Shown here piece after piece: positions 1,933 through 2,175 of a stretch of 45,645 nucleotides of DNA. The stretch lies in NCBI GenBank assembly GCA_018399745.1, contig JAGYNZ010000023.1, positions 1 through 45,645 of the forward strand. The letters run 5' to 3'. The position numbers and the translations under genes were made by a program. Source of the DNA: Deltaproteobacteria bacterium. GTDB taxonomy: Bacteria; Desulfobacterota; Dissulfuribacteria; Dissulfuribacterales; UBA3076. Below the pieces are notes generated by a model. The model ran no database searches and was not told the DNA's origin. It worked only from the letters and a program-made list of their open reading frames with translations. Position 1 is the stretch's first letter; the number at the start of each line of letters is the position of its first letter.

Positions 1933-2175
1933 ATGAAACTCTTTAATCCAGATGAACTTATCAACAGTAGAGGCGATTGCTGAAAGGCCCTTGCAGGCGT
2001 AGGGCTGCGCCTGAGAAACCCGTGCACTCCAAACGGCTATCAGATGGAAGTTCTTTTTGACGTGGATATAATGCCCAAAATGAACAAGCTTCTTGCAATA
2101 GTAGGCGGTAAGATCCTTCTTAAGGAAATACATGAGACCTATATAAGGCTTGTCGTGGAAAAAACTGCGGGTTAA
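1933..2175 (+). CDS. Candidate selenoprotein (80 codons with one in-frame TGA) or pseudogene
   Basis: A frame opens at ATG 1933, meets TGA at 1981-1983 (codon 17, directly after a Cys codon: Arg-Gly-Asp-Cys-TGA-Lys) and then stays open for 63 more codons to TAA 2173-2175. The part after the TGA reads like a real protein, with the segment GYQMEVLFDVDIMPKMNKL followed by an amphipathic, Lys-rich end. Its beta-alpha-beta character loosely recalls the C-terminal half of TusA/SirA-like domains, which is a weak impression only. Right after the TGA a 6-bp GC stem (CAGGCG/CGCCTG, 1994-2013) holds an 8-nt loop with a GGG, at about the distance a bacterial SECIS would need. No Shine-Dalgarno site is visible. 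A plain nonsense mutation is the alternative. Confidence 0.45.
1994..2013 (+). promoter_or_regulatory. SECIS-like hairpin after the in-frame TGA
   Basis: CAGGCG at 1994-1999 pairs perfectly with CGCCTG at 2008-2013 around the loop TAGGGCTG. A U-G closing pair would leave a G at the second loop position. Bacterial SECIS elements lie within the coding sequence, with the loop roughly 16-37 nt from the UGA and a G among the first loop bases; this hairpin meets those loose criteria. A competing stem (GGCCCT/AGGGCT) is also possible. Confidence 0.35.

Follow-up and report, generated by a model that had tools for sequence, protein, structure and literature searches.

Introduction

TusA and SirA proteins (PF01206), including YeeD (TsuB), are small sulfur carriers of about 80 residues with the order beta-alpha-beta-alpha-beta-beta. 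Helix 1 begins at a CPxP motif whose reactive Cys bears a persulfide, and TusA obtains its sulfur through persulfide transfer from a cysteine desulfurase. A TusA/SirA-type protein, YedF, has long been tied to selenium metabolism (PMC5322559, PMC2432076) and carries a C-terminal DsrE-like domain (PMC5322559). Adjacent Cys and Sec residues are found in the CU-motif selenoproteins, namely KCU-star/DUF466, SaoL, SaoC, HgcA, CopZ-like form 2 and MbdU (PMC13188914 Table 1). An inventory from 2026 that covers 119 prokaryotic selenoprotein families and subfamilies holds no TusA-type entry, and the same work calls the delivery of selenium to SelD incompletely elucidated (PMC13188914). Within the open-access literature, neither a 2022 review nor the deep-Sep paper names a selenoprotein SirA or TusA.

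An initial annotation of the 45,645-nucleotide stretch of DNA analysed here (the window) proposed a possible new small selenoprotein with a Cys-Sec pair. This proposal is supported by the homologs, the covarying hairpin and the Sec genes described below, and comparison of sequences makes it very nearly certain that the gene at 1933-2175 belongs to a new selenoprotein family. We consider it highly likely that the product is a selenoprotein with a TusA fold, a statement that covers its identity and not its function.

An in-frame TGA directly follows a Cys codon

The gene and its elements are listed in Table 1. As first described, a single TGA interrupts an otherwise intact 80-codon frame immediately after a Cys codon, and the coordinates are confirmed; a search of the host genome also read this frame with exactly one TGA. 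Elsewhere TGA is a normal terminator, and 12 of the 28 long open reading frames of the window end in it. A mechanical scan of the whole window for TGA-interrupted frames clear of long open reading frames found two such frames, and only in the frame at 1933-2175 is the TGA preceded by Cys. Three pairwise comparisons among the window gene and the two homologs closest to it yield pN/pS values of 0.17-0.24 for the region 3' of the TGA, and 0.16-0.27 when the hairpin codons are excluded. By these sequence ratios, the codons 3' of the TGA are under purifying selection.

Table 1. Positions, in window coordinates, of the putative selenoprotein gene and its elements.
Feature	Position	Strand	Description
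Putative selenoprotein gene	1933..2175	+	80 residues, from ATG at 1933 to TAA stop at 2173-2175; homologs extend across the TGA; pN/pS points to purifying selection 3' of the TGA
Predicted product	1933..2175		MKLFNPDELINSRGDCUKALAGVGLRLRNPCTPNGYQMEVLFDVDIMPKMNKLLAIVGGKILLKEIHETYIRLVVEKTAG
Invariant Cys codon (TGC) immediately 5' of the TGA	1978..1980	+	Cys in all homologs inspected
In-frame TGA, almost certainly read as selenocysteine	1981..1983	+	Single TGA in 45/45 genomes (unbiased protein/profile search); position checked in 44
SECIS-like hairpin, conserved core	1996..2011	+	6 bp stem, 1996-2001 with 2006-2011; loop GGGC, 2002-2005

Homologs retain the Cys-TGA pair

Protein searches of the 60 nearest genomes yielded matches in 24, each with exactly one in-frame TGA located directly 3' of the Cys codon. 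Six further, more distant homologs came from a profile search across 395 genomes of the phylum. A broader profile, built from 45 rows, recovered 32 strong matches with E of 2e-19 or better, again with exactly one TGA each. After a gap came weak matches at E above 5e-5, and the ones inspected among these are TusA-like proteins. Homologs with one in-frame TGA each were thereby found in 45 Desulfobacterota genomes by methods that make no use of the TGA or the hairpin, and the TGA follows Cys in all 44 genomes in which its position was verified.

Sequence conservation extends without a break across the TGA in all homologs, and the residue after the Cys-Sec pair is variable (K, R, A, S, W and others). 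Among the homologs found in the Desulfobacterota genomes searched, none has Cys or another residue in place of Sec at codon 17, and those found by protein similarity show no TAA, TAG or sense codon at this site. The initial annotation had left the decision to homologs at codon 17, and had named a lack of homologs or random substitutions at this codon as outcomes that would speak against Sec; homologs exist, and all those found carry the TGA. Homology-based selenoprotein surveys often begin with Cys-containing homologs (PMC12013277). Because no Cys form was found in the genomes searched, this family would be hard for such surveys to see, which points to a blind spot.

A DNA pattern comprising the TGA and hairpin was also scanned over a collection of 84,980 species and matched 81 stretches. 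Four of these (L064, L067, L084 and L089) are chance matches, and one match on a viral contig (L213) is also due to chance. This set demands a TGA by construction and therefore does not constitute independent evidence for it. The true members come from deltaproteobacterial lineages (Desulfobulbaceae, Candidatus Electrothrix, Desulfobacteraceae, Desulfacinum and Desulforhabdus) or from metagenome-assembled genomes without a precise name. Plasmids searched for the family gave no match, and an alignment-based search of genome contigs returned nothing, presumably since Sec was back-translated as Cys.

The searches and the pattern scan combine to a set of 83 distinct near-full-length sequences, which includes cultured Desulfacinum and cable bacteria. 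In a tree of this set, tips group by lineage and the Dissulfuribacterales branch is strongly separated, with the deeper forks unsettled because the alignment has few columns. The order Dissulfuribacterales also contains Seep-SRB2 strain FWG174, a partner of methane-oxidising archaea (PMC10553843). Since two cultured Desulfacinum species, D. infernum DSM 9756 and D. hydrothermale DSM 13146, carry the gene, it is accessible to experiment.

The host encodes the Sec machinery

The host belongs to Desulfobacterota, in agreement with the deltaproteobacterial origin that had been supposed. Its genome encodes tRNA-Sec (selC), SelB, SelA and SelD, all above their cut-offs, and so contains all four genes for which a check had been suggested; its own selD is interrupted by a TGA. 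Among the 60 nearest genomes, selB is present in 24 of the 24 carriers, and the gene occurs in none of the six genomes that lack selB. Numerous genomes with selB are without the selenoprotein gene, which indicates that it is not essential for Sec synthesis. The host's own TGA-containing selD lies in locus L237 (G000:C2:56000-70000), where, by inspection, it is near a 72-residue TusA that adjoins a YedE-like transporter and a DUF3343-like gene.

A SECIS-like hairpin covaries downstream of the TGA

In bacterial SECIS elements (bSECIS), a hairpin lies at the usual distance from the UGA and carries a G among the first two bases of its loop. Members of the family have a downstream hairpin with these features, located about 18 nucleotides 3' of the TGA. 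The initial annotation had noted a GC-rich hairpin where a bacterial SECIS would be expected and recommended folding 1981-2020. The hairpin is indeed present, with a stem that in the window sequence extends to 1994-2013, but when folded alone it is no better than its shuffles (z 0.30). A single sequence therefore cannot decide the matter, and the significance of the hairpin is comparative.

Covariation was assessed on 40 distinct sequences recovered through protein similarity. In the six-pair stem, 99.2% of cells are paired; shifting the partner strand by 1-3 columns lowers this to 25-68%. Compensatory changes are found at five of the six pairs (for example, the second pair changes from G-C to A-U in 19 of the 40 sequences). 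The loop consists of four bases with G second in all, beginning with RG or, rarely, CG. On this comparative evidence, the hairpin is a covarying SECIS-like element. By eye, a short GC stem whose loop is G-rich follows the TGA of selD in the host genome, at a comparable distance.

These findings bear on two other readings of the TGA. It might be a genuine stop, with the 3' conservation reflecting a separate small protein or a gene in decay, and both the ordinary use of TGA as a terminator in this genome and the fact that the hairpin alone is not unusual would be consistent with this. However, such a stop is highly improbable given that conservation is unbroken through the TGA, that no other stop or sense codon takes its place in homologs found by protein similarity, that purifying selection persists beyond it and that the hairpin covaries. 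Alternatively, a residue other than Sec (Trp, Cys or that of a changed code) might be inserted at the UGA without SelB. Although the frame is open on both sides, this explanation is scarcely credible when 12 of the 28 long open reading frames of the window terminate at TGA, the SECIS-like hairpin is conserved and every carrier among the 60 nearest genomes has selB. The TGA is thus almost certainly decoded as selenocysteine, as judged from the comparisons above. At codon 17, SelB and tRNA-Sec would decode the UGA, aided by the downstream hairpin.

The predicted fold resembles TusA

Searches of Pfam, NCBIfam, Rfam and PDB sequences assigned the selenoprotein to no family. The matches to insulin-degrading enzyme in the PDB sequence search (E 0.12) are weak and look like chance. 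The initial annotation found no match to a known selenoprotein family and could name no relative. The first part agrees with the absence of any Pfam or NCBIfam model match and of any entry in the 2026 inventory (PMC13188914), and the selenoprotein family is previously uncatalogued; the second part stands at the level of family models but not of structure, where the predicted fold is that of TusA.

An AlphaFold2 model was made of the window protein. The model has a pLDDT of 90 and the element order E-H-E-H-E-E, with helix 1 beginning at the Cys-Sec pair. Its best matches among PDB structures are TusA, YeeD (TsuB) and a SirA-like protein, with Z of 9.2-11.6 over 71-77 residues, and the rows after these three are at Z 8 and below. 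An hhalign comparison to TusA proteins of related genomes returns E 1.5e-6 and a probability of 90%, whereas the Pfam TusA model (PF01206) is not matched by the window protein. Based on this model, the window protein very probably has a TusA/SirA fold, which would add the TusA fold to those known to carry Sec.

Family members thus resemble TusA and SirA in their predicted secondary structure and length, in a reactive Cys where helix 1 begins, in two C-terminal strands and in weak profile similarity. They differ in having Cys-Sec rather than CPxP (the Cys is kept and both prolines are missing), in a one-residue length difference around this site, in the lack of a Pfam model match and in their Sec-dependent synthesis. 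The residue that corresponds to the TusA Cys varies with the method: HMMER places Cys on Cys, and hhalign places Sec on Cys. The model supports the view that the Cys-Sec pair, with which helix 1 begins, occupies the site of the TusA CPxP motif, with an exact residue equivalence that is ambiguous by one position.

YedF (TIGR03527) shares with the family a TusA-type domain and a tie to SelD and YedE, and it is encoded near the gene in L128 and L129. Unlike YedF, the family consists of a single domain of 80 residues with no DsrE-like domain and no NCBIfam match. To our knowledge, YedF is not a selenoprotein. The CU-motif selenoproteins have the adjacent Cys and Sec but are other families, and their NCBIfam models, where these exist, do not match the window protein.

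Gene neighbourhoods and possible function

At 13 distinct loci of the Desulfobacterales type, a LysR regulator is encoded directly 5' on the same strand, and in most of these only 29-63 nucleotides separate the end of the LysR gene from the selenoprotein Cys codon. Ten LysR proteins, nine of them directly 5' and one in L136 adjacent on the other strand, score above the curated cut-off of NF040786, the model for selenium metabolism-associated LysR; the truncated LysR copy of L087 has no match at the threshold used, and the scan left out L128, L132 and L188. Three Desulfobulbaceae loci have a SelB gene 5' (one representative scanned, above cut-off). Genes for SelD and YedF lie 3' in L128 and L129, and YedE and a 72-residue TusA are present in L128 and L132, with one representative per cluster scanned. 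How SelD receives selenium is a question on which these ties to SelB, SelD, YedE, YedF and the selenium LysR have a bearing.

Other clades have as neighbours either leuA/creA or, in other Dissulfuribacterales, speH-speB and dusB (creA by model scan, the remainder by inspection), and the window itself has nifA and nitrogen-metabolism genes. The selenium link is therefore clade-specific. In the window, a NifA-type activator (58-1614, above the TIGR01817 cut-off) is encoded 5' of the selenoprotein gene, and a small Gly-rich zinc-ribbon protein (2270-2488, sub-threshold Pfam matches only) directly 3'; open reading frames resembling asparagine synthase, an ammonium transporter, PII and glutamine synthetase follow further 3', by inspection. 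A CreA-family protein is encoded directly 5' in L065, L073, L100, L105, L107, L113 and others, from Desulfobulbaceae and cable bacteria.

As the most likely function, we tentatively infer a role in selenium supply, in which the protein would be a selenium/sulfur carrier resembling TusA. Selenium or sulfur would be bound at the Cys-Sec pair as a perselenide or selenenylsulfide and handed between selenium-supply proteins (YedE/YedF, SelD) in selenium-using anaerobes. Such a carrier is made only with Sec, so its own level would reflect selenium status. A more specific version, which we regard as somewhat unlikely, is a dedicated selenium carrier from YedE uptake to SelD via the Cys-Sec pair, whose level, as that of a selenoprotein, would serve with the adjacent LysR as a feedback sensor of selenium supply; if true, the protein would be an in vivo selenium donor for selenoprotein synthesis. 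Against a role in selenium supply, selenium genes are neighbours in part of the family only. The missing CPxP motif, the lack of a Pfam TusA match and the many selB-bearing genomes without the gene also count against the carrier reading.

Many members from family f9 of the Dissulfuribacterales carry a hydrophobic leader, in some cases with a lipobox, which would fit poorly with delivery to cytosolic SelD unless the internal start is used. Such forms would suit periplasmic redox chemistry, and the same selenoprotein could be a thiol/selenol redox enzyme (a disulfide, peroxide or polysulfide reductase) with Cys-Sec as its redox couple. A redox role is assumed for most known selenoproteins (PMC13188914), and the pair is invariant; nonetheless, the predicted fold is that of TusA and not thioredoxin, and selenium-supply genes adjoin in part of the family, so that we view this reading as possible yet doubtful.

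The carrier we propose might instead handle sulfur, as a TusA upgraded with Sec, moving sulfane sulfur in the dissimilatory sulfur metabolism of disproportionators and sulfate reducers. The TusA fold would accommodate this, as would hosts that are sulfur-cycling Desulfobacterota, including cable bacteria and Dissulfuribacterales, the order that holds sulfur disproportionators. We judge it unlikely, since the neighbours are the selenium regulator, SelB, SelD, YedE and YedF, and no dissimilatory sulfur gene cluster recurs beside the gene at the loci examined, whose neighbours were annotated in part.

Two variations in domain context were observed. In L006-L024 (Dissulfuribacterales, mainly family f9), the Sec domain of many members follows a hydrophobic leader, which in several includes a lipobox Cys. 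Most of them also contain an internal ATG, often with a Shine-Dalgarno-like stretch, about 16 codons 5' of the Cys of the Cys-Sec pair. These sequences possibly specify two isoforms, one membrane-anchored and one cytosolic. In L020 / L183 (G016:C154), a nicotinamidase/isochorismatase-like protein, as assigned by eye, apparently continues in frame from its C-terminus into the Sec domain.
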